Under the pieces are notes generated by a model. That model ran no database searches. It had not been told where the DNA came from and was given only the letters and a program-made list of their open reading frames with translations. A stretch of 38,109 nucleotides of DNA from an uncultured cyanobacterium (lineage in GTDB: Bacteria; Cyanobacteriota; Cyanobacteriia; PCC-6307; Cyanobiaceae). Numbering within the stretch: the first letter of the stretch is position 1; the number at the start of each line of letters is the position of its first letter. Positions 1 through 38,109 of this stretch are shown here, piece after piece. Location: positions 1 to 38,109 of the forward strand of contig CAIOGZ010000038.1 in NCBI GenBank assembly GCA_903858015.1, written 5' to 3'. A program made the position numbers and the translations under genes.

Positions 1-141
1 CAATCACGAAAACCATGAGCAAGCAGAGGCACCGCCGGCGCAGCCAAGGCGGAACCACTCCGGAAACGACGCCCCAGACCGGGTCGGGGGTGGCTCACTT
101 TTCGGTGTCGGAAGTGGCGCAGTTTTGGATGTCGGTTGACA
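1..141. mobile_element. End of an IS21-like insertion sequence
   Basis: Read on the minus strand from 141, the sequence starts TGTCAACCGACATCCAAAAC. It then repeats the theme as CCGACACCGAAAAGTGAGCC. Two tandem copies of a roughly 20-bp motif inside a terminus are typical of IS21-family ends, where they are multiple transposase binding sites. The other edge of the window (37969 onward) carries a closely matching terminus in the opposite orientation. The transposase genes lie outside the window. An open frame runs from about 3 through the terminus to 162 and could be the tail of an IstB-like protein, but I cannot confirm that. Confidence 0.75.
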
Positions 142-3981: not shown

Positions 3982-4241
3982 GGGAAGAGCACGGTGGTGA
4001 TCGGTCCTTCGCCCTCGCCGCGGGTGTCGTCGGTGATCACCCATAGCTTGCCGTGTTCAGGGGTGAGGTAGCTGGAGAAGAGGCGGCCATCGCCGCTGCG
4101 GGCGGCTTCGTTGTTGGCGGCTTTGTCGTCTTCGCTGAGGTCGCCCCAGTCGCCGGCGGCATGGCGATCGAGCAGGGCGGTGATCAGCGCGGGTGGCACG
4201 GCGGCGGCTACGGCGGCGGTGGCCACCACGCGGCCGAGGTT
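3982..4241 (-). repeat. Second copy of the small plasmid-type gene at 17736-17995
   Basis: These 260 bases match 17736-17995 base for base except for about a dozen substitutions, with no gaps seen. On the minus strand they encode most of the 93-residue protein found intact at 17723-18004 (PPALITALLDRHAAGDWGDL, then SEDDKAANNEAARSGDGRLF). Here the start MLHNLGR is replaced: the match ends at 4241 at the edge of the 32-bp inverted repeat. The C-terminal end is replaced where the copy joins the hsdR remnant. It is therefore a truncated, non-functional paralogous copy. Confidence 0.85.
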
Positions 4242-4696
4242 TGTCTGCGCGGGTGCTGGATCCAGGCGAGGTGGCGCTGCTCGCTGATCAGCCCGGCGAT
4301 CGAGGGGGTGGCATCAGGCACCTGGAAGGCGGAGCGGAAGGCGCTTGACAGCATGTCGAGATCTAGCGAGGGGATGCCGGTGGAAATCGGCTTGGGGCGT
4401 TGATCGAGCGGCATCGAGGCCAGGGCGAGGCATTCACCGATGCCATCGGCTACCGAAAGCACGCTGCGGCGATCGCGGCAGTAACCGGTGGTGAGGGCCG
4501 TCGCCCCATTCACCGCCGTGCGGCAGGTCTGGATTTCGGCCTCGATCGGTCCATCGAGCTGTTGGCACTGCAGCAGTTGTTCGAGGGCGCCATAGAACAC
4601 CTGCCGCGCCTTGGCGGCCTGGAACAAATCGCAGGCGATCGGAAAATCAGTCGGAGAGCAGCGCTGGGCCGAGTCGACCAACTCGGCTAGGGCCAT
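4208..4696 (-). pseudogene. Chimeric ORF: unknown N-terminal part fused to a Rad52 C-terminal tail
   Basis: From the ATG at 4694-4696 the frame gives MALAELVDSAQRCSPTDFPI, then ACDLFQAAKARQVFYGALEQ, a protein-like helical sequence of unknown family. Near 4345 it runs into AFRSAFQVPDATPSIAGLIS, then EQRHLAWIQH. That is the same tail as the Rad52 protein encoded at 18088-19473. The DNA at 4253-4344 matches 18157-18248 closely (92 bp, a handful of differences). The join to Rad52 DNA is seamless in frame, which suggests recombination between a Rad52-type gene and another gene, or a deletion. After the tail the frame continues into the inverted repeat and the small-gene copy, where it is meaningless. 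Confidence 0.5.
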
Positions 4697-5047
4697 AACG
4701 CCGTTGAGATCGCCAGCCGGCTTGCGATCCGCGCCGACTCGGTGCGGCGCTACCTCAGCCAGGCCGACCAACGCATCGGCGTGCGCGATCGCGTCCAGGC
4801 GGTGGGCTGGTGCCTCAGCCACGGCTTGATCACGCGGCAGGAACTGGATCGCCGCTACCGCCCCTGCAGCAACGGCAGCCACAGGAGCTGGCCATCGCCA
4901 GGGTCCGAGCAGCGGAAGCTGGGGATCGGCCCCATCGCCTCGATCGCACGGCAGCCGGGCGACAGAATCACCAGGTGGGAGAGGCTGAATGCCTCCAACG
5001 GTTGCAGCGGCAGCGGGATCCAGCACCCGCGCAGACAAACCTCGGCC
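4232..5047. repeat. Perfect 32-bp inverted repeat around a 752-bp segment
   Basis: The left arm 4232-4263 begins GGCCGAGGTTTGTCTGCGCG. The right arm 5016-5047 is its exact reverse complement over all 32 bases. The left arm ends at the GGATCC that is part of the Rad52-tail copy. The enclosed DNA holds the chimeric ORF and a HTH fragment and has no recombinase or transposase. It could be an inverted duplication made during rearrangement, or an invertible segment. The sequence shows only the repeat itself. Confidence 0.8.
4697..4862 (+). pseudogene. Fragment of a LuxR-type DNA-binding domain
   Basis: The plus-strand frame reads NAVEIASRLAIRADSVRRYL, then SQADQRIGVRDRVQAVGWCL and SHGLIT. This matches the recognition half of a LuxR/NarL helix-turn-helix ('EIA..L.IS..TV..H...A...LGV.DR.QAV..A...GLI'). 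It begins inside the domain, exactly at the start codon of the divergent chimeric ORF, and has no receiver or start of its own. It is most likely the tail of a response regulator brought here by rearrangement. Confidence 0.5.
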
Positions 5048-8278: not shown

Positions 8279-10354
8279 TCAGGCGCCGGCGGTTCGTCCC
8301 AGCCAGGGGCGGGTGGCGGCGTTGATCGCCTGCGGAGTCGCGTCCGGCAGCGGCTGGTATCGACCACCGCCATGGCGGGCAAGTTCCACAGCAAGGCCTG
8401 ATGGCCTGTGGCTTCGGCCGGTGTCGATCACCAACAGCTCCATGCCGAGCCCCTGGATCGCCGCAGCGATCGCCCGCAGCTCCTGGCGGATCTCGGCCAG
8501 GACAACCGGCGCTGGGCCAGCGTCGGCGCTGGAAGCCAGTGAGTTGCTCAGTGTCACATTGGCCCTGCCGTCGCTGATCAGCACGATCAGGATCTCGCCC
8601 ACCTCCTTGGCCCGGCGGGCATTCACACCCACCCGTACCGCCAAGGCCAGGCCGTGGGCCAGCGGTGAACCTCCGCCGCAGGGGAGCCGCTCCAGCCGCC
8701 GACTGGCTGCGGTGACAGAGCGGCTGGGAGGCAGCTGCACTTCGGCGCGCCGCCCGCGGCAGGTGATCAGGGCCACCTGGTCTCGGCTGCGGTAGGCCTG
8801 GGTCAGCAACTGCAGCGCCGCCCCCTTGGCGGCCTGCATGCGGTTCTGGGCCATCGAACCGGAGGCATCGACCACAAAGATCACCAGGGCGCCGGCCTTG
8901 CGCAGCAACTGCTTGACGCGCAGATCGTCCTCGCGCAAGAGCAGCCTCGGGCCCTGGCGCTGCCCCTTGCGGCCCCCCTTGCCCTGACTCAGGCTCCGGC
9001 GCCGGGCGCGCTGATAGGGCGCTGCGGCTCTGAGGGTGGCGTCGATGGCGATGGGGCGGATGGGTCCCCGGGGGATCAGCGGCCTCACGTAGCGGCCCCG
9101 GTCCGGCGAGGGCACCAGAGCGCCACCGCCGGCCTTGCCGTGGCGCCGCTTGCCGTGGGCGACCTGGGCCAGCAGGTGGGGGTCGAGCAGCACACCCTCC
9201 GGAGAGAACAGAAAGATTTCAGGGACGGCATCGCTTTGGGGCTGATCCGGAGCGGCCTCCGCCTGGCTGGCCTGCTCCGGCTCGGGTTCGCCGCCCGGTT
9301 CGTTCGGGGGCTGCGGGGGAGGTGGCGGTTCACGGTCCGGGGGCGGAACCAGGGCGGCGGAGCGGGGCAGTATCACCAGTTCCACGGCTCGGCGCAGATC
9401 GGCGGCCACGACCAGGCGCCGCCCCTCCAGAGCCGCCTGGGCCCGGGCCAGCCGTACGGCGAAAAGATCGGCCCGGTGCCCCTCCACCCCAGCGCGGATC
9501 GCCTCCTCCACCAGATAGCGAACCTGCTCTCCCGTGAGCTTCACCCTCCCCAGCCAGCGGCGGGCGGTGGCGACCTGCCGCTGCAGGTCGGCCAGGCCCG
9601 GGCCATGGCACCGCCAGAAGCCGACCGGATCGGCGGCCTGTTCCAGCACCCGCTCCACCGCCTCCACCCGCTGATCAAGGCTGAGGGGGGTGTCGGCGGA
9701 GAGCACCAGAGCCAGCCGATCGATCAGATGGGCCCGCACCTCACCCTCCGCCGGGTTGTAGGTGGCAATCAGCACGGGGCGACAAGGATGCTGAAAGCTG
9801 ATTCCCTCGCGCTCCACCCGGTTGATGCCGGCATCCACCACCGTGAACAGAAGATTGGCCAGGCTGGGCTCCAGCAGGTTGAGCTCGTCGATGTAGAGAA
9901 CGCCCCGGTGCGCCTCCGCCAGCAGCCCCGGCTGGAACACAGGCAGCCCGCGCCGGATCGAGGCCGCCACATCCACCGATCCCAGCAAGCGGTCTTCGCT
10001 CACCCCCAGGGGCACCTGCACAAAGGGCGGCGGCATCAGGATGCTGATGGGCTTGCGGCTGAGCGTGGCGCCATGGGCAACGGTGGCGTCGTCCCATGTG
10101 CCGGGATCGGCCGGATCAGCGTTGCAGCAGGAGCGGCGGATCACCCGGATCGGGGGGAGCAAGGCGTGCATGCCGCGGGCCAGCACCGACTTGGCCGTGC
10201 CCCGGCGTCCTGCGATCACGATGCCGCCCAGACCCGGATCCACCGCCAACAGCACAAGGGCCCGGCGGATCGCGTCCTGACCCACCACGGCATTGAGGGG
10301 AAACGCGGTCGGCCCGACCTCAGACGATCGCGCGGCGCCGGACAGAACGCTCAC
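8279..10354 (-). CDS. chlD: ChlD-like chelatase subunit (AAA+ plus integrin-I domain)
   Basis: This 691-residue protein follows the Mg-chelatase D layout. The N-terminal AAA+ domain begins FPLNAVVGQDAIRRALVLLA, with Walker A GRRGTAKS, LLGSVDVAASIRRGLPVFQP, Walker B GVLYIDELNLL and ATYNPAEGEVR. A Pro/acidic linker (PPPDREPPPPPQPPNEP...) follows at about residues 340-380. The C-terminal integrin-I domain carries the MIDAS motif DASGSM, GGGSPLAHGL and LISDGRANV. D subunits form the ATP-driven platform with ChlI rings that drives metal insertion by the H subunit. It starts at GTG, overlapping the stop of the H-like gene by one base (TAGTG). No chlI gene is nearby, so it must borrow ChlI or act through its own AAA+ domain. 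Whether this is the main ChlD or a paralogue cannot be decided from the window. Confidence 0.88.
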   Translation of the reverse strand: MSVLSGAARSSEVGPTAFPLNAVVGQDAIRRALVLLAVDPGLGGIVIAGRRGTAKSVLARGMHALLPPIRVIRRSCCNADPADPGTWDDATVAHGATLSRKPISILMPPPFVQVPLGVSEDRLLGSVDVAASIRRGLPVFQPGLLAEAHRGVLYIDELNLLEPSLANLLFTVVDAGINRVEREGISFQHPCRPVLIATYNPAEGEVRAHLIDRLALVLSADTPLSLDQRVEAVERVLEQAADPVGFWRCHGPGLADLQRQVATARRWLGRVKLTGEQVRYLVEEAIRAGVEGHRADLFAVRLARAQAALEGRRLVVAADLRRAVELVILPRSAALVPPPDREPPPPPQPPNEPGGEPEPEQASQAEAAPDQPQSDAVPEIFLFSPEGVLLDPHLLAQVAHGKRRHGKAGGGALVPSPDRGRYVRPLIPRGPIRPIAIDATLRAAAPYQRARRRSLSQGKGGRKGQRQGPRLLLREDDLRVKQLLRKAGALVIFVVDASGSMAQNRMQAAKGAALQLLTQAYRSRDQVALITCRGRRAEVQLPPSRSVTAASRRLERLPCGGGSPLAHGLALAVRVGVNARRAKEVGEILIVLISDGRANVTLSNSLASSADAGPAPVVLAEIRQELRAIAAAIQGLGMELLVIDTGRSHRPSGLAVELARHGGGRYQPLPDATPQAINAATRPWLGRTAGA

Positions 10355-13300
10355 TAAGCCTCCGCCGCCACCGACACCCCCTCCAGCTCGGCATCGGTGA
10401 GGTCATAAAGGTTGCGCAGCTTGTCGATTTTCTCTTGCGGGGCCTGCCACAGGCCCCGGCTGTGGGCCTCCAGCATGCGGCCCACCACGTTGCGGAATGC
10501 CTCGGGGTTGGCCTGACGCAGCCGCTGGGCCATGGCCGGGTCGAGGGCGTAGGTGGCGGCGGCCTGGTCATAGACCCAAGGATCCTGGAAGCCGGAGGTC
10601 CCGCCCCAGCCGATCAGGGCTGTTATCCGTTGGGAGATCTCGTAGGCGCCGCCCGATCCCATCGCAGCCATCGCCTCCGCCCAGCGGGGGTTGAGCAACT
10701 TGGTGCGGTACTCCAGGCGCAGCAGCTCCTCCAGGTCCCGGGGCGTGGTGTCGCGCGAGAACGACTCGACGAAGCTGGCCGCCACCCTGCCGTCCGGTCT
10801 GATCTCCCGTTGGGCCACTTCAGCGGCGCGCTTGAGGCCACCGGTGTTGGCGTAGTACTCCTGGATATCGGTGAGGCCGTATTCCACCGAATCGATCTGC
10901 TGCACCACCCGCCCGGTGCTGCGCAGCAGGGCGGCCAACACCTGGGGCCGGGCCTCGCCCTTGTCGGCGCGGCCGTAGCTGTAGGCGTTGCGAGCCTGCC
11001 AGGTGGCGGCCAGCTCTTCGCCGCTCTCCCAGTTGGCATCGGTGACCCGGTCGTTGACCAGGGAGCCGAAGTCGCCGGCGGGATTGGAGAAGAGGCGTGC
11101 GCTGGGGTTGGGGATGCCTGCGGCGGCGAGCTGTTGGGCGTGGCGACGGATGGCGTTGCGCTCCGGCGGTTCGTCGACCTCGGCGGCCCTGCGGAACAGG
11201 TCGTCGAGCAACTCGACGATGTTCACGAAGCTGTCGCGGAAGATGCCCGACAGGTTCACCAGCACGTCGATGCGAGGGTGCTCCAGGCGGTCGAGGGGCC
11301 TCAGCTCGTAGCGCACGATTCGCCCGGTGCCCTCCTTCACCGCCTCGGCTCCCACCAGTTCCAGCAGGATCGCCAGCGATTCACCTCTGGTCTTGATCGC
11401 ATCGAGGCCCCAGAGCATCAGCGCCACGGTTTCGGGCCAGGCACCGCCGTTTTCGGCGCGGTGCTTCTCGAGGATCCGCAGAGCGATCTCGCGGCCCCGG
11501 ATCAGGGCGCCGGGGGAGGGCATGCGGTAGGGGTCGAGGGCGTGGATGTTGCGGCCGGTGGGCAGCACGCCGGGGCCATCGCGCAGCAGGTCGCCACCAG
11601 GGGCCGGCGGGATGTAGCAGCCGTTGAGGCCATCGAGCAGGTGCTCGAGCTCTTCCCTGCTGCGCTCCAGGAGCTGGCAGACGCGCAGGGCATCCAGCAG
11701 CCGCTGGGAGCGTTCGGCTCCCTCAGACGGGCTGGGGGCCGCAGCTTCTGCCCGGCCCGGATCCCCCTGCGGACCGCTGGCGCCAACCGCACCGACCGCG
11801 CCAGGATGGGTTCGCTCCAGGTCCGCGAGCTGCGCTCGCAGGCCCCCATCATCGCTGGCGGGCGTCAGCCGGCTGATCGCCTCCAGCAGCTCCTCGGGCA
11901 GGGCCGGGCCGACGTAGGCCTTCAGGTAGGCGAGGCGCTGCTCCGCATCTGGGGGCTGGCCGAGGGTATGGAGACCGCTGGAGAAGAGCCGGCTTTCCAG
12001 AATCTGCAGGTAGGCGGCCAGTCGCACCAGCCAGCCATCAAAAGCCTGCCGATCGACGGCGGCGCTGCCTGGGGCTGGGCAGTCGGCATCGAGGCCGCTG
12101 TCGTTCACCTGCTTGAGGATGGCTTCGATCAGGGGGGCGTTGCGTTCCGGAGCCTGGCGGTAATCGCCGATCAGATCGCGCAGGGCGATCAGCTCCCGAT
12201 AGAGGCCGGCGCGGCCGTAGGGCGGGACGTTGTGGGAGACGATCACTCCGTAGCCACGCCGTTTAGCCAGCATCGACTCCGACGGGTTGTTGGCTGCGTA
12301 GATGTAGAGGTGGGGCAGGTTGCCCAGCAGCAGATCGGGCCAGGAGTAGCCGGTGTTGCCCAGCGGGGAGCCCGGCAGCCACTCCAAGGTGCCGTGCATG
12401 CCGAAGTGCAGCACCACATCCGCCTGGAAGCCATGGCGCAGCCAGCCGTAGAAGGCGGCGTACTGGGGATGGGGGGTTAGGTCGCGCTCGTACATCAAGC
12501 GCATCGGATCGCCCGCCACCCCGAGGGGCGGCTGCACACCGATCCAGACGTTCTCCAGGCTCACGCCGCCCAGCAGGCAGCGGCCCGCCAGGGTGCGGAT
12601 TGGGCTGTTGCTCAGCGGTCCCCAGTGCTTCTCGATGCGGGCCGTGTGCAAGGGCCCGAGCCAGTCCCGCAGCGTCTCCATCGACACACTGGCGCCGCCC
12701 CAGTCTTCGAAGCGCTCTCCTTCTGGAATGCGGCTCACCCAGGTGTCGTTGGCCTGCTTCACCTGGCGGATCAGCTCTTCGCCACTGGCCGGCAGGGGAC
12801 CGACCCGGTAGCCCTGCCGCTCCATCGCCCTGAGCAGAGCCATCAGCGAATCGGGCACCTGCAGCAGGGCGGCGGTGCCTGTGGCGCCGTAGCCGGGGGG
12901 GAAGCCGTAGAGGACGATCGCCACGCGACGCTCCGCGACCGGTTTGCGCCGCAGGGCGATCCAGGCGTTGAGGCGGCCGGTGAGCCGCCTGAGCCGCTCG
13001 GGAATCAGAAGGATGCGATCGCCCACCAGGCCGCCCAGGGGCACCGGATCGATGGCACCATCCAGTTCGGGCAGGGCGTACAGCACCACACTCTGCAGGC
13101 CGCCGATGCCCTTGCGGGTCCACGAGTGGAGGTCCTGGATCAGCAGCGGCGCAGCCACCACGTAAGGCACATCCTTGGCGCGCAGGATGCGCTGGGCAAC
13201 CTCCTCGCGCCGGCCCGCCTCCATCGAGCCGGCCGGACCGCCCACCAGGGGAAAGCCGATGGTGGAGACGATCGCATCCACCTTCGCGGACTGGCGGTGG

Positions 13301-14196
13301 ACGCCGCCGGCGCGAGCCTGTTCTGAGGCGCTGGTCATCCAGTCGCGCACGGCGATGTGACCCTCCACGCCGTTGATGAACACCGGCAGCGGCACCAGCC
13401 GGGCCGCCTCGAAGGCGCGGATCAGCTGGGGAATGTAGGGCTGCCCGGTGATCACATGTTTGCGGTAGAGCAGCAGCCCAACCACCGGCCAATTCTCCTT
13501 CTCCGCGGTGCTGCGTGGGCGCGTGCGGGCGAACCAGGCCATGTAGTCGAGAGGCGCCAGGAAGTAGCCGTCATGGTCCGGATGGAACAGGCCGAGGTCG
13601 GGCGACTCCCGCAGCGGTGGGATCAGGGCAGGGTTGAGCCCCAGCCCATGGCGGGCCAGATAGAGAAACAGGGCGGTGATGTTCTCCCTGCCGCCGCCAT
13701 TCCAGTAGCGATAGAGGATCAGCCAGTGGCGCAGATCCTGGGCCCGGCGGCTGGGCAGGAAGCGCAACAGTTTCGGCCCCACCTTGAGGAAGCCGATGTA
13801 AGCGGCCAACTTGTCCTCCTCCCGCCCGCTGCCGAACCTGGCCAGCAAGGCCTGGATCGGCCGGGGCATGCCGGCGCCGCCAGCGCCGATCGTGAAGCGT
13901 CCAAAACGGGTGAGCTCCATCAGCTCGATCGCAGATTCGAACACCAGCCGGATCGGGATGGAGGCGGTGTGCCGGCGCAGCCATTCCACCTGGTCGAAAT
14001 CGAAGATCAGGCTGGCAAAGAGGGCCTCGGCGCTCGCCAGGGCAGTCGCCACCTCGTCGGGGATGGCCACGAGATCGCGATCGCTGAACACCGCGATCCC
14101 CAGGCCGGGGCACTGGGCCATCGCCGCCGCGGCGGCCTGGCGGTAGAGACCGGCATTGAACACCTCGAATCCAGCCAGCAGCACGATCCGTTTCAT
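10354..14196 (-). CDS. ChlH/BchH/CobN-family large chelatase subunit
   Basis: About 1280 residues from the ATG at 14194-14196 (MKRIVLLAGFEVFNAGLYRQ); in-frame starts at 14217 (ATG) and 14238 (GTG) are alternatives. The N-terminal part is the DUF3479-like domain. The body is the CobN/Mg-chelatase domain, with HFGMHGTLEWLPGSPLGNTG, ANNPSESMLAKRRGYG, PGVLPTGRNIHALDPYRMPS, LMLWGLDAIKTRGESLA and HPRIDVLVNLSGIFRDSFVN. It ends FRNVVGRMLEAHSRGLWQAP. The family binds the tetrapyrrole and inserts Mg or Co. From memory the sequence departs from the usual cyanobacterial ChlH (shorter start, different N-terminal region) and looks closer to BchH-like paralogues. The metal and substrate are therefore open. 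A Pro/Ala/Gly-rich insert lies near residues 810-850. It is translationally coupled to the ChlD-like gene. Confidence 0.85.
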   Translation of the reverse strand: MKRIVLLAGFEVFNAGLYRQAAAAAMAQCPGLGIAVFSDRDLVAIPDEVATALASAEALFASLIFDFDQVEWLRRHTASIPIRLVFESAIELMELTRFGRFTIGAGGAGMPRPIQALLARFGSGREEDKLAAYIGFLKVGPKLLRFLPSRRAQDLRHWLILYRYWNGGGRENITALFLYLARHGLGLNPALIPPLRESPDLGLFHPDHDGYFLAPLDYMAWFARTRPRSTAEKENWPVVGLLLYRKHVITGQPYIPQLIRAFEAARLVPLPVFINGVEGHIAVRDWMTSASEQARAGGVHRQSAKVDAIVSTIGFPLVGGPAGSMEAGRREEVAQRILRAKDVPYVVAAPLLIQDLHSWTRKGIGGLQSVVLYALPELDGAIDPVPLGGLVGDRILLIPERLRRLTGRLNAWIALRRKPVAERRVAIVLYGFPPGYGATGTAALLQVPDSLMALLRAMERQGYRVGPLPASGEELIRQVKQANDTWVSRIPEGERFEDWGGASVSMETLRDWLGPLHTARIEKHWGPLSNSPIRTLAGRCLLGGVSLENVWIGVQPPLGVAGDPMRLMYERDLTPHPQYAAFYGWLRHGFQADVVLHFGMHGTLEWLPGSPLGNTGYSWPDLLLGNLPHLYIYAANNPSESMLAKRRGYGVIVSHNVPPYGRAGLYRELIALRDLIGDYRQAPERNAPLIEAILKQVNDSGLDADCPAPGSAAVDRQAFDGWLVRLAAYLQILESRLFSSGLHTLGQPPDAEQRLAYLKAYVGPALPEELLEAISRLTPASDDGGLRAQLADLERTHPGAVGAVGASGPQGDPGRAEAAAPSPSEGAERSQRLLDALRVCQLLERSREELEHLLDGLNGCYIPPAPGGDLLRDGPGVLPTGRNIHALDPYRMPSPGALIRGREIALRILEKHRAENGGAWPETVALMLWGLDAIKTRGESLAILLELVGAEAVKEGTGRIVRYELRPLDRLEHPRIDVLVNLSGIFRDSFVNIVELLDDLFRRAAEVDEPPERNAIRRHAQQLAAAGIPNPSARLFSNPAGDFGSLVNDRVTDANWESGEELAATWQARNAYSYGRADKGEARPQVLAALLRSTGRVVQQIDSVEYGLTDIQEYYANTGGLKRAAEVAQREIRPDGRVAASFVESFSRDTTPRDLEELLRLEYRTKLLNPRWAEAMAAMGSGGAYEISQRITALIGWGGTSGFQDPWVYDQAAATYALDPAMAQRLRQANPEAFRNVVGRMLEAHSRGLWQAPQEKIDKLRNLYDLTDAELEGVSVAAEA

Positions 14197-14947
14197 CTCG
14201 ACCTGCCGAGGCGCCATGACGGGATCCAGGTGAGGCACTCAGCGTTCAACGGCACCGGTGCCGGTGCTAATCCAGGCTGGCAACGGGCAGCCGATTCTCG
14301 ACCCGGTGCAGCGCAGGGACCGTCGGATCAGCCGCATCACCGCAGCGTCGTTGCCCCGCTGTCCAGGCGGACCCCGTAGCCGCCTGGCTCGCCCGCAATG
14401 CACCCGAGCGATGGGCCCGCCAACGCGCCGGCCCCAGGGCTGCCGACCCATGGTGCAGGCGCGCCCATGACCAACCCGTCGATGGCGGCGATCACCGCCT
14501 GGCCGGTGACTGCTGAAAAAGACCAGCCCATCGGCGCAAGAATGGCGCAATGCCACCGTTGGCCGGGTGATGCAACCGAGGCCCCAAGCCTTGATGCCAA
14601 CTGCTGCGCAGAAGTCTGCGGTTACGGGATAGATGGGGATCACCGGGCCGATTCCATGGCGCCAGCACTGCGGAGCGATCGAGGGGAGCGTCGCTGCAGC
14701 AGCGGATCACCGGGTTGGCTCAAGGCAGAGGCTGAAGGGTGGTTCGCAAGCCAGGGGGACAAGGCAGCCGGTCAAAGATGCTGTGCAATGCCCAGGCCAA
14801 TGCCCCAGGGCAATGCAGAAGCTCCCTGCAGCAGGGCGATCACGATTGCTGGCCAAGCCCATGGATCAGGGGCCGGTATCCCGAACGGTTGGCGCTGGTT
14901 TTAGCCCCAGGGTTGGCTAGCCTGCTTTGTACCTACGAACGCTAACG
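14197..14947. other. Intergenic region upstream of the chelatase operon
   Basis: Here the minus-strand operon and the plus-strand regulator diverge. A minus-strand frame at 14337-14529 (SFSAVTGQAVIAAIDGLVMG, then APAPWVGSPGAGALAGPSLG) has good codon character and may be a decayed gene. I cannot name it. I looked for a cobalamin riboswitch on the minus strand: AGCCAGGCGGCTACGG near 14375-14390 resembles a B12 box only loosely and the other conserved blocks are absent. Confidence 0.3.
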
Positions 14948-15457: not shown

Positions 15458-15575
15458 CTACGCGGCGGTGCCCTCCAGGCTGCGCCCCTGGGCAAGGGCT
15501 GCGCGAGTCGGCCTGCGGGCCGACCCTTGCCGGGCGGGGCGGCCGTGGAAGGGCCCGCCGCTGCGCCGTGGGCTG
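15458..15575. repeat. 118-bp foldable repeat, copy 1
   Basis: It is identical to 16869-16986 at 117 of 118 positions (T at 15569 versus G at 16980). The unit is nearly palindromic. An outer arm CGCGGCGGTGCCCTCCA pairs with TGGAAGGGCCCGCCGCTGCG. An inner stem GGCAAGG pairs with CCTTGCC, and a central hairpin GTCGGCC-TGC-GGGCCGAC caps it. It starts 14 bp after the cyAbrB terminator T-tract. Such size and folding fit a REPIN- or MITE-like element or a structured RNA. Confidence 0.8.
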
Positions 15576-16868: not shown

Positions 16869-16986
16869 CTACGCGGCGGTGCCCTCCAGGCTGCGCCCCT
16901 GGGCAAGGGCTGCGCGAGTCGGCCTGCGGGCCGACCCTTGCCGGGCGGGGCGGCCGTGGAAGGGCCCGCCGCTGCGCCGGGGGCTG
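16869..16986. repeat. 118-bp foldable repeat, copy 2
   Basis: This copy lies in direct orientation to copy 1 at 15458-15575, with one difference. The two bracket about 1.3 kb of AT-rich DNA. Homologous exchange between them would remove that cargo and leave one copy. The flanks differ right outside the 118 bp, so the repeat borders are sharp. Confidence 0.8.
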
Positions 16987-17722: not shown

Positions 17723-18004
17723 TCAATAGTCGTCCGGGAACAGCACGGTGGTGATCGGCCCGTCGCCCTCGCCGCGGATGTCATCGGTGATCACCCAGAG
17801 CTTGCCGTGTTCGGGGGTGAGGTAGCTGGAGAAGAGGCGGCCATCGCCGCTGCGGGCGGCTTCGTTGTTGGCGGCTTTGTCGTCTTCGCTGAGGTCGCCC
17901 CAGTCGCCGGCGGCATGGCGATCGAGTAGGGCGGTGATCAGCGCGGGAGGCACGGCGGCGGCTACGGCGGCGGCGGCCACCACGCGGCCGAGGTTGTGGA
18001 GCAT
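17723..18004 (-). CDS. Small plasmid/phage-type protein of unknown function
   Basis: This 93-residue protein runs MLHNLGRVVAAAAVAAAVPP, ALITALLDRHAAGDWGDLSE, DDKAANNEAARSGDGRLFSS, YLTPEHGKLWVITDDIRGEG and ends ITTVLFPDDY. I know this layout ('LGR.VAT..... LL.RH..GDWGDL...D...NE.A...G.R..S.Y.....K.WVIT...R..TT.L.P..Y') as a small protein common on plasmids and in mobile regions, without a proven function. It sits between Rad52 and the MNT gene on the same strand. A truncated copy lies at 3982-4241. Confidence 0.75.
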   Translation of the reverse strand: MLHNLGRVVAAAAVAAAVPPALITALLDRHAAGDWGDLSEDDKAANNEAARSGDGRLFSSYLTPEHGKLWVITDDIRGEGDGPITTVLFPDDY

Positions 18005-18087
18005 GGCTGGAAAGGCAGGGGGAAGGGAAGGCGAGGCCAGGGGAGGCCAGGGGAGGCCCCGCCGAGATGGTGACCAGTCTGGAGAGC

Positions 18088-19473
18088 TCAGGCGGCGCGG
18101 GCCTGGCCCAGCCCTTGGCTCTGGCTGTGGCCTTGGCCTTGGGTCTGCGTGAGGTAGTGCTGGATCCAGGCGAGGTGGCGCTGCTCGGTGATCAGCCCAG
18201 AGATTGAGGGGGTGGAATCAGGCACCTGGAAGGCAGAGCGGAAGGCGCGGGAGAAGGCAGCCAATTGGGGCGGCAGCAGGGCGCGGATGCGCTTCTGCAG
18301 GGCCTCGATGGTGGCCGGATCGAGGCGAGTCGTGGCGCCCGTGCGGGCGGCAGGAGCGCTGGTGGGGGCGGTTTGGGGCCTGGCGGTGGCGGCAGGCACC
18401 GATGCCCCGGCGGTGGGGATTTGAGCGCCATTGGCCTGGCCGTTCCTGGCGCCATTGCCGTTGCCATTGCCGCCCTGGGAGCGGGCTGGGCCATTGAAGG
18501 CCGCCGCCACCGGATTGGCCAGGGGCGAAAGCCGCTGCGCTGGCGGGCTGGTGGGCTGCTGGCGGTGGGCGGCTGGCACCGGGCTGGGGCTTGCCACCCG
18601 GCTGGGGAATTGCGGCCGGCTGGGGGCCTGGCCCTGGGGAGCACTCCTGGCTTGGCTGGGGCCTTGCCCTTGCCACTGCCCTTGGCTTTGGCCTTGCCCT
18701 TGGGCACTGCCACTCACCTGGCGTTGGCTCTTGTCATAGAGCGCCAGCCCAAACGGGTTCCCGAAGGTGATCAGGGCGCGTTTCATGGCGTCGGTTTCGG
18801 CTTCCTTGAGGGCGGATTCGTGGGCTTGGCCGAGGTCCACGTCGATGCCGTGGCCGGCGCCGCTGCCTTCTCGGATCAGGGGCAGACGGCCACCGGCGAG
18901 CACGATGATGCGCACGCGGGCGGTGTAGGTGACACCCCAGCCGGGTTTCTGCTCGCGGTTGGTGCCCTTGGCACCGATCAAGCGTTCGCTTTGGGCGACG
19001 CAGCGAACGGCGATGGTTTGGCGCTGCCAGCCGTCAAAGCCAAAGATGCGGTTGGCCTCGTTGATCACCACCCAGCTTTGGAGATAGGAAACCTGGCTGC
19101 GGCCCTGCTCACGGGAGGAGACCAGGGCGCGGTTGAGCGGAGCGGCGAGGGCGGCGCATTGTTCGGCGGAGAAGCCCGGCAGGTGGGTCGCCGCAGCGTT
19201 GGTGGGCTGGGGCTCTGGGCCCGTGGTCACTCCAGCGGTGGCATCTGTGGCGCAGAGCCGCCGAATCAGCTGCAGGGCCGTGGGGCCTGCGCTGCTGCCA
19301 TTGGGGCCTGCGCCAGTGGCGCGGGTGCCATTGGGATTGGAGCCATTCGCGTTAGCGGGATCGCGGCGAATCGGGCCTGGGCCGTGGGCCGGGGCGGCGT
19401 TCGTGGGCCTGCCGGTGGCCGGGCGAGTGGAAGCTGGGCGGCTGAAAGCTGGCCGTGTGGTGGTGCTGGTCAT
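18088..19473 (-). CDS. Rad52-family single-strand annealing protein with a long linker
   Basis: This is a 461-residue protein from the ATG at 19471-19473; the longer start at 19527 adds 18 residues with no domain value. Residues 1-95 are low-complexity Pro/Ala/Thr/Asn. The Rad52 core follows at about 98-252: FSAEQCAALAAPLNRALVSS, SYLQSWVVINEANRIFGFDG, GWGVTYTARVRIIV, then AHESALKEAETDAMKRALIT and FGNPFGLALYDK. A Gln/Gly/Ser/Pro-rich linker spans about 253-385. The conserved tail is RAFRSAFQVPDSTPSISGLI, then TEQRHLAWIQHYL. Rad52-type annealases are typical of phages and mobile elements, and the Gp157-like gene upstream fits that. The tail is the part duplicated at 4253-4344, where it is fused to another protein. 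Confidence 0.85.
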   Translation of the reverse strand: MTSTTTRPAFSRPASTRPATGRPTNAAPAHGPGPIRRDPANANGSNPNGTRATGAGPNGSSAGPTALQLIRRLCATDATAGVTTGPEPQPTNAAATHLPGFSAEQCAALAAPLNRALVSSREQGRSQVSYLQSWVVINEANRIFGFDGWQRQTIAVRCVAQSERLIGAKGTNREQKPGWGVTYTARVRIIVLAGGRLPLIREGSGAGHGIDVDLGQAHESALKEAETDAMKRALITFGNPFGLALYDKSQRQVSGSAQGQGQSQGQWQGQGPSQARSAPQGQAPSRPQFPSRVASPSPVPAAHRQQPTSPPAQRLSPLANPVAAAFNGPARSQGGNGNGNGARNGQANGAQIPTAGASVPAATARPQTAPTSAPAARTGATTRLDPATIEALQKRIRALLPPQLAAFSRAFRSAFQVPDSTPSISGLITEQRHLAWIQHYLTQTQGQGHSQSQGLGQARAA

Positions 19474-32643: not shown

Positions 32644-33838
32644 GCTTGGCGGCGGGGGGCCCCATGGCGATGGGGCGTTCCGTTTGCGGTGGCGGGTCGC
32701 CAGCGTTACGGGGGGTGTGGATCACGCGGCCCGCTTAACAACTGCCAGCCATCAGCAGGGAGCAGCGATTGTGACGAGAGCTAGGGCGTGAGCGGCCGGA
32801 TTAGGGCGCTATGGGCTGGGCAGGTTGTCCGCCAGTCTGGTCAGCAGCAGAGCTGATCCCGCCAGAGTCCGGCGGCGGCAGTTGCGCAGTTTGCAGCCAT
32901 CACCTGGGCTTATCGCCTGCATTGGCGATCCTGGGCGATGTCGCCACCCACACGGCTTTGAAAGCGTCTACATTTCCTGCACTCGAGCCCAAGCGCTCCT
33001 CCCTGAACTCGCTGCCCAGCCATGTCCTCCGCCCATCAGGCAGCCCAACGCCAGCGTTGCGGATCCCGGCGCTGCCGTCGTGGTCAGCGCCGCATCCATA
33101 ACCAGGCCTGTGCAGACGAATTGCCCCGGAGTTGATCGGAAGCCCCCCTGGCTCAGCGAAGGGCGTGGCTTCCGATAGGTTGTTGTCAAAGCAAGAGGAT
33201 TAAGTTCCTTGTAGTTTTTTTGAACTGTCAAAATTTGAAGAAACTGGCTGTAGGGCTGTTTGCAAATTGGTAAGCAAATCCTGCTGACTTGCTCAAAGAA
33301 TAGTCCTCCTCCAGTAATAATGTCGCTGGCCTCGCAGTATTAATAGAGCCCGAAGCGCCTAGTCTCCATCTTAGATAGCTCAAAACTGGATTCTGGATGT
33401 TTGATGCTTGATGTTAGCACTTGAAGGCTAATGTTTTGTTTTTGGTTTTGATTTAGTTTGCGCGCAGGTTGTCTTCGTTTCAGTATAGCCGCTAGGATTT
33501 TCCTGCTGGCTATATCTGTATTGTTGCTGCCGGATTCTAGATAGCTGACTAGCGCGCCTAGATGTCTAGCTGCTGGCTGCATACCTACCTGCCTTCCGGC
33601 TGCATACCTACCTACTGGCTGCATGCCTATCTGGCTGCATGCCTATCTGGCTGATCGACTGACTGGATCGATCTTGGCTGCTGCCGATCGATCGTGTTGA
33701 TTGGGTTTCTGGCTATTGGTTTTTACTTTTTGATTCTTGTGCCAATTTATTGGCTTCGTTTTCTGCTGTCCACCGCTCCTGAGTGATATCTCCTGATTCA
33801 TATCTCCCTATTGGTTGTTTCACCTTCTCCCCTGCACC
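32644..33838. other. 1.2-kb intergenic region upstream of nrtA
   Basis: No gene is firmly supported. A 38-codon Arg/Cys-rich frame starts at ATG 33020 (MSSAHQAAQRQRCGSRRCRR...). A minus-strand frame at 33340-33624 is probably accidental. The inverted repeat ATCGGAAGCC/GGCTTCCGAT (33135-33144 and 33167-33176) could be a terminator-like hairpin. From 33180 on the DNA is much more AT-rich. I looked for NtcA sites (GTA-N8-TAC) on the plus strand and found none. The tandem repeat at 33575-33648 is listed separately. Confidence 0.5.
33575..33648. repeat. Four copies of a 16-bp unit upstream of nrtA
   Basis: The unit GGCTGCATACCTACCT occurs at 33575-33590 and 33598-33613. The variant GGCTGCATGCCTATCT occurs at 33617-33632 and 33633-33648. 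The spacers shrink from 7 to 3 to 0 bases. The array lies about 190-260 bp upstream of the nrtA start codon. It may be an array of regulator sites or just a slippage product. Confidence 0.75.
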
Positions 33839-35188
33839 ATGGCCAAGCGTCAACGCTGCATCGCTCTGCTCGGCGGAGCTCTCTCCACCACGATCATGCT
33901 CACGGGCTGCCTCGGTAATCCGCCAAGCAAGCAAGGCGCCAGCACGGCAACGGCTCCGACCACCACGGCGCCAGCCGTAGCTGCCAATGCCGATCTAGAG
34001 GTGAAGACCATCAGCCTCGGGTACATCCCGATCCTGGAAGCCGCCCCCCTGGTGATCGGGGTGGAAAAAGGCTTCTTCGCCAAGCATGGCCTGGAGGTGA
34101 ACCTCAGCAAGCAGGCCAGCTGGGGCGCCGCCCGCGACAACCTGGTGCTGGGCGCCGGCGGCGGCGGCATCGATGGCGGCCAATGGCAATTGCCGATGCC
34201 CCAGATGATCAGCGAAGGCGCCATCACCAATGGCAAGAAGGTACCGATGGTGATCTTGGCGATGCTGATGAGCCAGGGCAATGGCATCGCCGCCGCCAAC
34301 TCCGTCAGGGATGGCAATCTGAGCGTCGACCTGAAAACCTCATCGCCTGGCTTCTTCGACACGTTCAGCCAGAAGCAGGGCCGCAAATTCAAGGCCGCCT
34401 ACACCTTTCCCAAGGCCAACCAGGAGATCTGGATCCGCTATTGGCTCGCTGCTGGTGGCGTGAACCCCGACCAGGCGGTGGAACTGCTCAAGGTGCCTGC
34501 ACCGGAAACCCTGCAGGGCATGAAGAACGGCACGATGGAGGCCTTCACCACCGGTGATCCCTGGCCAACGCGCATCGTCAAGGACAACATCGGCTACCTG
34601 GCCGCCACCACAGCCCAGATCTGGAAAGTGCACCCGGAGGAATACCTCGCCGTGCGCAGCGAATGGGTGGACAAGCACCCCAAGGCCGCCGTGGCCCTGC
34701 TTAAGGGTCTGATTGAAGCCCAGATCTGGCTCGACAAGCCCGAGAACAAGGATGAGGCCGCCACGATCCTGAGTTCCCGCAAGTGGTACAACGTGCCCTT
34801 GCCGGTGCTTCAGGCATCGCTCAAGGGTCAGTACAAGATCGGCGCCAATGGCACGCCGCAAACCAATCCGGCCATGGGGCCCCTGTATTGGAACAGTGAT
34901 CGAGGTGTGATCTCTTATCCCTACAAGAGCCTCACCCTCTGGTTCCTGATCGAATCGATGCGCTGGAAGTTCTTCCCTGGCACCGTCGACACCGTCGAGC
35001 AGGCCAGGGCCATCAACGACAAGGTGACCCGCGTAGATCTCTGGCGGCAGGCCGCCAAGGAAGTGGGAGTGCCTGAGAAGGACATCCCCACCGGCTCCAG
35101 CCGCGGCAAGGAAACCTTCTTCGATGGCGTCGTTTACGACCCGGAGAATCCCAAGGCCTATCTCGATTCTCTGAAGATCAAGAAGTGA
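33839..35188 (+). CDS. nrtA: Nitrate/nitrite ABC transporter substrate-binding lipoprotein
   Basis: This 449-residue protein starts at the ATG at 33839 (MAKRQRCIALLGGALSTTIM) with lipobox LTGC. A Thr/Ala/Pro-rich tether follows (about residues 25-48), then the NrtA/CmpA fold: ISLGYIPILEAAPLVIGVEK, KQASWGAARDNLVLGAGGGG, IDGGQWQLPMPQMI, AYTFPKANQEIWIRYWLAAG, VNPDQAVELLKVPAPETLQG. It binds nitrate or nitrite in the periplasm for the NrtBCD transporter. CmpA (bicarbonate) and CynA (cyanate) are close relatives; the linked fused nrtC-type gene favours nitrate or bicarbonate. A hairpin follows the gene. The DNA is intact. Confidence 0.88.
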   Translation: MAKRQRCIALLGGALSTTIMLTGCLGNPPSKQGASTATAPTTTAPAVAANADLEVKTISLGYIPILEAAPLVIGVEKGFFAKHGLEVNLSKQASWGAARDNLVLGAGGGGIDGGQWQLPMPQMISEGAITNGKKVPMVILAMLMSQGNGIAAANSVRDGNLSVDLKTSSPGFFDTFSQKQGRKFKAAYTFPKANQEIWIRYWLAAGGVNPDQAVELLKVPAPETLQGMKNGTMEAFTTGDPWPTRIVKDNIGYLAATTAQIWKVHPEEYLAVRSEWVDKHPKAAVALLKGLIEAQIWLDKPENKDEAATILSSRKWYNVPLPVLQASLKGQYKIGANGTPQTNPAMGPLYWNSDRGVISYPYKSLTLWFLIESMRWKFFPGTVDTVEQARAINDKVTRVDLWRQAAKEVGVPEKDIPTGSSRGKETFFDGVVYDPENPKAYLDSLKIKK

Positions 35189-35305: not shown

Positions 35306-36154
35306 ATGACAACCGGCATCAGCCCCACCAGCAACAGTGCCGAGCGCACCCCACCGCAGGGTGTGGCGCTTTGGTGGAAAAACAACCGCAAAGGAATCAT
35401 CTCACCCCTGTTTGGCATCGGAGGCTTCCTGCTCTTCTGGCAGCTCAGCGCCAGCCTGGGCCTCACCAAACTGGCCGGACCCCTGAGCCTGTTCACCGAG
35501 GAACGCACCCGCGATCTGCTGTTTTACCCCTTCTTCGATCGTGGCGGCCTCGATAAGGGCCTATTCCTGCACGCGATGAGCAGCCTCAGCCGGGTGGCGC
35601 TCGGCTACAGCCTTGCCGCGATCGTGGGCATTGCCGTGGGGATCGCCGTGGGGCTCAACAAGGCCCTGGATCGGGCCTTCGATCCCCTGTTCCAGTTCCT
35701 GCGCATGGTGGCGCCGCTGGCCTGGGTGCCGATCGCGCTGGTGCTGTTTCAGAACAACCAGCCGGCGGCGATCTTCGTGATCTTCATTACCTCAATCTGG
35801 CCGATCCTGATCAACACCGCCGAGGGCGTGCGCCAGATCCCGCAGGACTACCGCAACGTCGCCCAGGTGCTGCAGATGTCGAACCGAAGCTTCTTCACTA
35901 AGGTGCTGATCCCCTCGGCCCTTCCCTACATCTTCACCGGCCTGCGCATCTCGATCGGCCTGGCCTGGTTGGCGATCATCGCCGCCGAGATCGTGATGCC
36001 CGGCACCCCCGGAATTGGCTTCTTCATCTGGGATGCCTATCAGAATAGCTACGTCTCCGAGATCGTGCTCGGCGTGATCTGGATCGGTGCGATCGGCCTG
36101 ATTCTCGATCGCCTCATGACCTGGCTGCAGAAACGCATCTCCAGCAACCACTGA
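35306..36154 (+). CDS. nrtB: Nitrate/nitrite ABC transporter permease
   Basis: This 282-residue protein has about six membrane helices and the binding-protein-dependent permease signature: SLSRVALGYSLAAIVGIAVG, RMVAPLAWVPIALVLFQNNQ, the EAA-like loop NTAEGVRQIPQDYRNVAQVL, and FTGLRISIGLAWLAIIAAEI. The N terminus (TTGISPTSNSAERTPPQGVA) is cytosolic. It forms the membrane channel with the NrtC/NrtD ATPases. It lies 117 bp after nrtA, with the hairpin between, and is followed by a 57-codon gene. Confidence 0.9.
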   Translation: MTTGISPTSNSAERTPPQGVALWWKNNRKGIISPLFGIGGFLLFWQLSASLGLTKLAGPLSLFTEERTRDLLFYPFFDRGGLDKGLFLHAMSSLSRVALGYSLAAIVGIAVGIAVGLNKALDRAFDPLFQFLRMVAPLAWVPIALVLFQNNQPAAIFVIFITSIWPILINTAEGVRQIPQDYRNVAQVLQMSNRSFFTKVLIPSALPYIFTGLRISIGLAWLAIIAAEIVMPGTPGIGFFIWDAYQNSYVSEIVLGVIWIGAIGLILDRLMTWLQKRISSNH

Positions 36155-36170: not shown

Positions 36171-36344
36171 ATGCCGTTCCGCCCCCTTCAATCCCTGCTG
36201 CAGCCCCTGAGCCGCCGTGCCGAAGCCGCCGAACAATCGCTGAGCCGCCCTGCCAACGCCATCACCTTCCTGGTTGTGCGCTTCGTGCTGATGAGCGGCA
36301 TGGTACTGGGCTTCAGCTGGTATGCCTTTCATTCAATGCCCTGA
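36171..36344 (+). CDS. 57-residue membrane mini-protein inside the nrt operon
   Basis: ATG 36171 to TGA 36342-36344 gives MPFRPLQSLLQPLSRRAEAA, EQSLSRPANAITFLVVRFVL, MSGMVLGFSWYAFHSMP. A basic amphipathic N-terminal half is followed by one hydrophobic helix (about residues 31-52) and a short tail. It starts 16 bases after the nrtB stop and ends 18 bases before the nrtC ATG, filling the space exactly, so it is almost certainly translated. I do not recognise a family. A role as a small accessory or regulatory subunit of the transporter is an inference from position only. Confidence 0.65.
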   Translation: MPFRPLQSLLQPLSRRAEAAEQSLSRPANAITFLVVRFVLMSGMVLGFSWYAFHSMP

Positions 36345-36362: not shown

Positions 36363-37991
36363 ATGACAACCCTCGTAGAAGTTCAAGATCTTGAGAAGAA
36401 TTTCCCCCTCGATGGCGGTGGCAATTACTTGGCCCTTAAGGGAATCGATCTCAACATCCGCAAAGGCGAATTCATCTCCTTGATCGGCCACTCCGGCTGC
36501 GGCAAGAGCACGCTGTTGAACATGATCGCCGGCCTCGACCTGCCCACGGGCGGCACGGTGCTGGTGGATGGCGAAACGGTGAAGCGCCCTGGCCCCGACA
36601 AGATGGTGGTGTTCCAGAACTACTCCCTGCTGCCCTGGCTCACGGTGGAGCAGAACATCGCCCTGGCCATCGATGAAGTGATCCCAGGCCTCTCCCGCGA
36701 GCAGCGCCAGGCCCTGGTGAAGGAGCACATCGAGATGGTGGGGCTGGGCCATGCCGGCCACAAGCTGCCCCGCGAACTGTCCGGCGGCATGCGCCAACGG
36801 GTGGCGATCGCCCGCGCCCTGGCGATCAAGCCGAAGCTGCTGCTGCTCGATGAACCGTTTGGGGCCCTCGATGCCCTCAGCCGCGGCAATCTGCAGGAGA
36901 AGCTGATGCAGATCTGTAATGAGCACCAGCTCACCGCCGTGATGGTGACCCATGACGTGGATGAGGCGGTGCTGCTCTCGGATCGGATCGTGATGCTCAC
37001 TAACGGCCCCGGCTCAAAGATCGGCGGCATCCTGGAGGTGGACATCCCGCGGCCCCGCCAGCGGATGACCGTGGTGCACCACCCCAGCTACTACAGCCAG
37101 CGCTCGGAGATCATCTACTTCCTCAACCGCCAAAAGCGGGTAAAGCAGTGGCAGGCCAAGCCCCACAAGGTGCTGGCCAGGCATGGTCTGGAGAAGGTGA
37201 ATCTCGATTTGGGCTTCGTGCCCCTGGCGGCCTGCGCGCCGTTGGCGGTGGCCGAGGCCAAGGGCCTGTTCGCCAAACATGGCCTCGACGAGGTGAAGCT
37301 GGTGCGGGAAACCACCTGGCGCGGCGTGACCGATGGCCTGGTGGATGGCACCCTCGATGCGGCCCTGATGCCTTCGGGCATGCCCGCCTGGATGACGGCG
37401 GGGGGACACGGCGGCACGCCGATCCCGGTGGTGAGCTCCCTCACCTTGAGCCGCAACGGCAACGGCATCACCCTGGCCCGTCGGCTGGCCGAGGCCGGCG
37501 TCCACACCGTGGACGACTACCGCGCCTGGCTGCAGAGCCACAACCGCGAACCCCACACCCTGGGCATCGTCCATCCGGCCTCGATGCACAACCTGTTGCT
37601 GCGCTATTGGCTGGCGGCGAACTCGATCGATCCCGACCGCGATGTCCACCTGCAGACCCTGCCACCGGCCCAGATGCTCGCCGACCTCAAGGACGGCAGC
37701 ATCGATGGCTTCTGCATCGGCGCTCCCTGGCTGGATCGGGCCGTGGCCGAAGGGCATGGCTTCACCGTGGCCGGCGACCTGGCGATCTGGCCGGGCCACC
37801 CGGGCAAGGTGCTTGGCGTACGCGAAGATTGGGCCGTTGCCTATCCGAACACCCACATCGCCCTCACCAAGGCCCTGCTAGAGGCCTGCCGATATTGCTC
37901 CGAACCCAGCCACTGGACGGAGTTGAGCGAGTTGCTGAGCGATCGTCGTTATCTGGGTATGAAGAAAGTGTCAGCCGACATCGAAAACTGA
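36363..37991 (+). CDS. nrtC: Fused ATPase/NrtA-like subunit, truncated by an IS
   Basis: Residues 1-255 are the ABC ATPase: Walker A GHSGCGKST, Q-loop VVFQNYSLLPW, signature LSGGMRQRVAIARAL, Walker B LLLLDEPFGALDAL, switch His in MVTHDVDEA. After a linker, residues from about 275 resemble NrtA (VNLDLGFVPLAACAPLAVAE, AKGLFAKHGLDEVKLVRETT), as in cyanobacterial NrtC. Intact NrtC has about 660 residues. Here the native sequence ends near codon 535 (RRYLGMKK), and the last seven codons (VSADIEN) and stop are IS-derived (IS begins at 37969). The C-terminal NrtA-like domain is known to mediate inhibition by ammonium, so its loss may give uninhibited or unstable transport. nrtD would lie beyond the IS, outside the window. 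Confidence 0.9.
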   Translation: MTTLVEVQDLEKNFPLDGGGNYLALKGIDLNIRKGEFISLIGHSGCGKSTLLNMIAGLDLPTGGTVLVDGETVKRPGPDKMVVFQNYSLLPWLTVEQNIALAIDEVIPGLSREQRQALVKEHIEMVGLGHAGHKLPRELSGGMRQRVAIARALAIKPKLLLLDEPFGALDALSRGNLQEKLMQICNEHQLTAVMVTHDVDEAVLLSDRIVMLTNGPGSKIGGILEVDIPRPRQRMTVVHHPSYYSQRSEIIYFLNRQKRVKQWQAKPHKVLARHGLEKVNLDLGFVPLAACAPLAVAEAKGLFAKHGLDEVKLVRETTWRGVTDGLVDGTLDAALMPSGMPAWMTAGGHGGTPIPVVSSLTLSRNGNGITLARRLAEAGVHTVDDYRAWLQSHNREPHTLGIVHPASMHNLLLRYWLAANSIDPDRDVHLQTLPPAQMLADLKDGSIDGFCIGAPWLDRAVAEGHGFTVAGDLAIWPGHPGKVLGVREDWAVAYPNTHIALTKALLEACRYCSEPSHWTELSELLSDRRYLGMKKVSADIEN

Positions 37992-38109
37992 GCCAGCGCC
38001 GACACCAAAAGTGAGCCACCCGGAAGCGATGGGGGAGCCGATGCCGGCCGCGTCAGCGGCGGGTCATGGCTCTCCCTTGCAACGGTCATCAGCGACGGCA
38101 TCGACAGCG
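37969..38109. mobile_element. End of an IS21-like insertion sequence interrupting nrtC
   Basis: The terminus starts TGTCAGCCGACATCGAAAAC and contains a second motif copy CCGACACCAAAAGTGAGCC. It matches the reverse complement of the left window edge at most positions. The following bases (GGCCGCGTCAGCGGCGGGTC) may lead towards istA, but no frame can be called. Both window edges being the same type of IS end is what one expects if the sequence is a contig that ends in repeats, or if the segment lies between two copies. Confidence 0.8.

Follow-up and report, generated by a model that had tools for sequence, protein, structure and literature searches.

An IS21-family element interrupts cmpC in the BCT1 bicarbonate transporter operon of an uncultured cyanobacterium

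The locus and the identity of the interrupted gene

The window, a stretch of 38,109 nucleotides, is the entire contig C38 of a 3.84 Mb draft genome that consists of 100 contigs and is listed as 99.93% complete. Near its right end lie the first genes of a transporter operon, the third of which runs into the terminus of an insertion sequence. The features on which the analysis depends are as follows (evidence in brackets).

33815 to 35188, forward strand: cmpA-like gene for the BCT1 bicarbonate-binding lipoprotein, an ORF of 457 amino acids with its start as listed mechanically (bit scores against solved structures)
35306 to 36154, forward strand: cmpB-like permease gene, 282 amino acids (bit scores against solved structures)
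36171 to 36344, forward strand: small ORF of 57 amino acids in the gap between cmpB and cmpC (tblastn over 28 loci, codon counts)
36363 to 37967, forward strand: surviving part of cmpC, 535 codons (bit scores against CmpC and NrtC, Pfam, end of the match in 10 relatives)
37964 to 37968, forward strand: GAAAG, the five target bases adjoining the element (flank comparison)
37968 to 37991, forward strand: hybrid codon 536, six codons read from the element and a TGA stop (sequence, translation)
37969 to 38109, forward strand: istA-side end of an IS21-family element, its first 141 bases (same stretch at four other contig ends; full copies in relatives)
1 to 141, reverse strand: istB-side end of a separate copy of the element, paired with contig C6 through AGCTT (recurrence, flank comparison)

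The transporter proteins of the window were scored against solved structures. The A protein gave 533 bits to CmpA (2i48) versus 379 to NrtA (2g29), the B protein 362 bits to CmpB (9u9z) versus 267 to NrtB (8w9m) and the C protein 852 bits to CmpC versus 683 to NrtC. A second set of genes, on contig C20, showed the reverse: its A protein scored 488 bits to NrtA versus 356 to CmpA, and its C protein 599 bits to NrtC versus 528 to CmpC. The interrupted operon is therefore cmpABC(D), which encodes the BCT1 bicarbonate importer, and these scores rule out the label nrtC that a sequence-only reading had placed on the frame beginning at 36363. The A, B, C and D frames of the C20 set are open (446, 281, 694 and 275 amino acids), and its D gene is presumably nrtD, judging from its place. 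The nitrate/nitrite importer NrtABCD belongs to the same superfamily and has the same gene order as the genes of the window, but all three window proteins score lower against it than against Cmp, and the genome carries its nrt-type set separately. The corrected name, cmpC in place of nrtC, is of use to annotators, since the family TIGR01184 ('nitrate ABC transporter ATP-binding protein') matches the C proteins of both sets, so that NCBIfam alone cannot separate them. The window resembles the known BCT1 system (CmpABCD) in the order A-B-C and in a C protein that joins an ATPase to a regulatory domain; it differs in that C ends at residue 535 of about 661, in the small ORF that lies between B and C, and in the cmpD gene, which was not found in the assembly.

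The ORF that holds what is left of cmpC extends from 36363 to 37991 on the forward strand and encodes 542 amino acids, with its TGA stop at 37989-37991. From 36363 there are 535 normal codons, after which both the sequence and its translation show the frame crossing into TGTCAGCCGACATC at 37969. Codon 536 is a hybrid, made of the last target base (G) and TG from the element, and the foreign end of the protein reads VSADIEN before the stop. The earlier description of a frame broken at about codon 536, to which the IS terminus supplies seven codons and a stop, is confirmed, with the hybrid as the first of the seven. The contig terminates 141 bases into the element, at 38109, and for this reason the far side of the insertion cannot be read.

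The element and its copies

The motif TGTCAGCCGACATC occurs in the window as one exact copy and as one inverted copy with a single mismatch, at 128-141; at up to 2 mismatches its chance expectation is 0.27, and 4 of 100 shuffles reached 2. The stretch of 140 bases that starts at 37969 is also present at the ends of contigs C16, C6, C92 and C36, with 0, 1, 1 and 1 differences, respectively (among the best 40 of 49 candidates), and the terminus is therefore that of a repeated element. Its recurrence at other contig ends, together with the pairing of flanks described below, rules out a chance match of the terminus at the cmpC junction.

Full-length copies in relatives are bounded by the same two ends and measure 2573 bases in G001 and 2577 bases in G011 and G045. 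The G001 copy encodes IstA (NF033546, 244 bits against a cut-off of 160) and IstB (NF038214, 280 bits against a cut-off of 200; PF01695, 274 bits); in the G011 copy the istA frame is shorter. The copies in G001 and G045 have inverted TGT...ACA termini, with TGTCAGCCGACATC at one end and an inverted sequence like TGTCAACCGACATC at the other, and the G011 copy has one mismatch at the first (TGTCAGCCGACATC) end. The likeness to IS21 insertion sequences thus lies in the istA and istB genes, the TGT...ACA termini and the length of about 2.57 kb that the relatives' full copies share, to which G001, unlike G045 and G011, adds a 5-base duplication; only 141 bases of the cmpC copy are present in the assembly, and its family is read from those full copies. 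On this comparison of sequences the element in cmpC is of the IS21 type, and its earlier assignment as IS21-like is borne out by the presence of both istA and istB in the full-length G001 copy. When named genomes were scanned with the 30-base terminus, records close to the source genome possibly being excluded, two stretches with short remnants of the element came up, in UBA5018 and Ja2-D2_bin-0462.

In this genome the istA-side end lies at five contig ends (the right ends of C38 and C6, and ends of C16, C92 and C36; among the best 40 of 49 candidates) and the istB-side end at four (C87, C88 and the left ends of C38 and C6); one far side or more must therefore have been lost or left out of the assembly. 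When the five bases outside each end were compared, three of 20 comparisons matched, where 0.02 were expected: C16 with C6 (TCCAC), C6 with C38 (AGCTT) and C36 with C87 (CTCCT). CAGGC stands on either side of the G001 copy; no target duplication was seen around the copies in G045 and G011. A duplicate of GAAAG, the flank in cmpC, was not found among the istB-side contig-end flanks of the assembly, in which the only unpaired flank, GCCTC on C88, differs from both GAAAG (C38) and GTTGG (C92). The flank of C88 is itself a repeated element.

The target duplications give the order C16-IS-C6-IS-C38-IS, with the elements all in one orientation; the stretches of 58 and 38 kb between direct copies could therefore be lost by recombination. 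Some other stretches hold little beyond the two IS ends: 50 bases on contig C92 of this genome (G000:C92:105291-105340) and 52 bases in a named MAG (L086:7250-7301). It is possible that these are internally deleted, mobile remnants. More lone IS ends are found on C95, C58 and C57 and at C6:54046.

The truncated CmpC and the fate of the transporter

Ten of 18 same-genus relatives have a near full-length match to cmpC at 83-96% identity, and in all ten the match to the window stops at residue 534 or 535 while their own open frames continue to 663-667 amino acids. One more, G007, has a partial match (residues 394-535), and the remaining seven of the 18 searched have neither kind of match. CmpC of the nearest relative, G010, is 661 amino acids long, and so 126 residues are missing here. 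The ATPase domain is complete (ABC_tran, residues 25-166 by Pfam). The regulatory domain, which spans about 268 to 656 in a relative, is represented by residues 268-535, so that about two thirds of it would remain and about a third be lost; the Pfam family NMT1_2 (PF13379) is still matched at residues 276-525, over model positions 3-251 of 252. The protein of the window is thus a broken member of the BCT1 C proteins, with the ATPase whole and the CmpA-like regulatory domain cut. Its earlier description as an ATPase plus half a regulatory domain holds for the intact ATPase and the truncated C-terminal domain; the remainder is nearer two thirds than half.

Searches of the assembly for the rest of the operon gave only paralogues. 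With G010 CmpD as the query, the best match among the proteins was the nrt-set D gene on C20, at 65% identity, followed by two C proteins at 53% and 52% and then weaker ATPases (all 52 candidates scored). The last 132 residues of G010 CmpC found only three paralogous stretches at 27-31% (all 5 candidates scored). Among the best 40 of 183 candidates for G010 DNA running from before the junction through cmpD, 56 bases matched up to the junction and the cmpD part met only ATPase paralogues. The same kind of gap affects the element: among the best 40 of 222 candidates a full-length copy found only the ends and diverged fragments on C58, C92 and C18, and a search of the assembly for the IstB family gave three partial matches. 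The absence of cmpD is weak evidence because the body of the element is absent too, even though its ends sit on nine contig ends. A stretch with the end of cmpC and cmpD could have been dropped from the assembly, whose 100 contigs are all at least 1,845 bases long (6 are under 3 kb), in the same way as the body of the element. The absence of both cmpD and the cmpC tail is suggestive of a real loss rather than proof of it. The lost flank cannot be located through its neighbours, since G010 and G005 are not syntenic with each other downstream of cmpD and 5.6 kb of G010 matched this genome only in scattered places (best 40 of 183 candidates).

The insertion is probably of recent date. No stop interrupts cmpA, cmpB or the 535 remaining codons of cmpC. 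Non-synonymous and synonymous changes were counted on the branch to this genome and on that to G010, with G005 as outgroup; codons at which both ingroup sequences differed from the outgroup were left out, as were 10 gap columns of cmpA. By these counts amino-acid changes in A, B and C are not clearly in excess on this branch. For the three genes together the counts are 28:95 here versus 20:94 in G010 (p = 0.34), and for cmpC alone 11:49 versus 3:46 (p = 0.084). The regulatory part of cmpC gives 10:31 here, 2:21 in G010 and 15:29 in G014, whose gene is intact; against ten other branches, drawn from overlapping and non-independent triplets, this contrast has p = 0.096, or p = 0.012 without G014. 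The counts thus do not demonstrate decay since the insertion.

These observations point to an IS21 insertion in cmpC, the third gene of cmpABCD, that is probably recent and has probably left BCT1 non-functional or nearly so. The element follows directly on codon 535, and the gene for the partner ATPase, cmpD, would then lie cut off behind it or have been deleted along with the 3' end of cmpC. With the final third of the CmpC regulatory domain missing and cmpD cut off or deleted, BCT1 would become non-functional or nearly so, and the cell would depend on other means of carbon uptake such as an SbtA-family transporter, for which the genome has a gene (PF05982, 401 bits). Three same-genus genomes listed as 99-100% complete (G002, G004 and G013) have no match to the C protein above 60%; BCT1 therefore seems dispensable in the genus. 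In the passages cited here from the engineering of BCT1 by Rottet et al. 2024 (PMC11349869), removal of the CmpC regulatory domain alone left BCT1 inactive in E. coli, while a fused half-transporter without that domain and evolved CmpCD forms were active. The natural case shares with theirs the loss of all or part of the regulatory domain; their forms, as described there, were cut at residue 263 or fused to CmpD, unlike the cut at 535 without a fusion that is found here. Against a loss of function stand the complete ATPase domain and the full match to PF13379, and cmpD may survive behind the element, on the side that lies beyond the contig.

Whether the 3' part of the operon was cut off or deleted is left open by this explanation, and a sub-case of it, in which insertion was followed by recombination between same-orientation copies that removed the 3' end of cmpC, cmpD and what lay beyond and joined cmpC to unrelated DNA such as C88, is a serious possibility, if somewhat short of an even chance. 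The copies in the C16-C6-C38 series share one orientation, cmpD was not found, and the flank of C88 fits neither C38 nor C92, as is expected after recombination between copies. Yet C88 may be the partner of C92, in whose flank there are old IS21 fragments as well, and the excess of istA-side over istB-side ends (five versus four among the best 40 of 49 candidates) counts against the deletion. That the junction is an assembly artefact or a minority variant, with an uninterrupted cmpC in the main population, is improbable. The contig does end in a multi-copy repeat, where assemblers are prone to error, but the 141 bases of the element join cmpC exactly at the terminal nucleotide of the element, and searches of the assembly gave no continuation of cmpC (DNA, among the best 40 of 49 and 40 of 183 candidates; protein, all 5 candidates scored). 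Since 5-base duplications pair three further junctions of this element, such junctions are in general real in this assembly. The IS21 interruption of cmpC is a real and ordinary gene disruption.

The opposite consequence, in which the truncation frees the ATPases, cmpD persists behind the element and bicarbonate is imported regardless of nitrate or SbtB signals, appears unlikely. It draws on the literature on regulatory domains: a 2026 review, in the passage that cites Li et al. 2026, describes the CmpC domain as blocking the CmpC and CmpD ATPases at low nitrate and nitrate as releasing them (PMC13249358), and the portion of the NrtC work used here reports that truncated NrtC makes nitrate uptake insensitive to ammonium (PMC6603209). 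To these can be added the active fusion without a regulatory domain (PMC11349869, as excerpted above) and the counts on this branch, 10:31 in the regulatory part and 1:18 in the ATPase part of cmpC, as if only the former were unconstrained. This literature makes de-repression a reasonable rival, but one that depends on CmpD or a stand-in: the transporter could be de-repressed only with a surviving cmpD or with NrtD in its place, and the search of the assembly did not find cmpD. The cut falls within the domain and leaves a partial fold, loss of the domain alone gave no activity in the E. coli work as excerpted above (PMC11349869), and the contrast in rates is weak (p = 0.15; p = 0.096 against the ten other branches), with G014 showing 15:29 in an intact gene. 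A variant in which the CmpC stump still works, its ATPase pairing with the D subunit of the nitrate transporter set (65% identical to CmpD of G010) in a hybrid importer of bicarbonate no longer subject to the nitrate-sensing regulatory domain, is highly improbable. An ammonium-insensitive nitrate transporter, or loss of nrtD through polarity, had been proposed from the sequence, but neither follows from damage to a cmpC gene: the genome has another, nrt-type ABCD set whose frames are open, which rules out ammonium-insensitive nitrate uptake as the outcome, so the argument from ammonium and nitrate does not apply. For bicarbonate uptake a corresponding effect is possible, but it ranks second, since no cmpD turned up in the assembly.

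As a loss of function, the disruption of cmpC is a further case of a gene broken up by an insertion sequence, and it shows the loss of BCT1 under way in a genus where the transporter is already patchily present. Among the titles listed by a literature search, none concerns an interruption of cmpABCD of this kind in cyanobacteria. If the truncated CmpC were still active, it would parallel in nature the engineered active forms of BCT1 that, according to the sections of PMC11349869 cited here, are sought for plant chloroplasts, and it would test the connection of nitrate with the regulatory domain of CmpC that is reported in the review passage (PMC13249358).

Other features of the window

G010 and G005 have the 57-amino-acid ORF of the cmpB-cmpC gap at 88-91% identity, and G011 and G015 have it at 41-45% (tblastn, 28 loci); the remaining loci of the 28 gave no real match, and no Pfam family matched it. 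For three close pairs its dN/dS values (NG86) are 0.057/0.317, 0.044/0.228 and 0.040/0.469, so it looks like a real gene for a small protein, the product of which, judged by eye, perhaps has one membrane helix.

Elsewhere the window has direct repeats at 3982-4344 and 17736-18248 and at 15458-15575 and 16869-16986, measuring 260, 118 and 107 bases with 96, 99 and 88% identity, and a perfect 32-base inverted pair at 4232-4263 and 5016-5047. Two large adjacent ORFs of 691 and 1294 amino acids occupy 8279-14238 on the reverse strand; we take them to resemble the AAA and large subunits of magnesium or cobalt chelatase.
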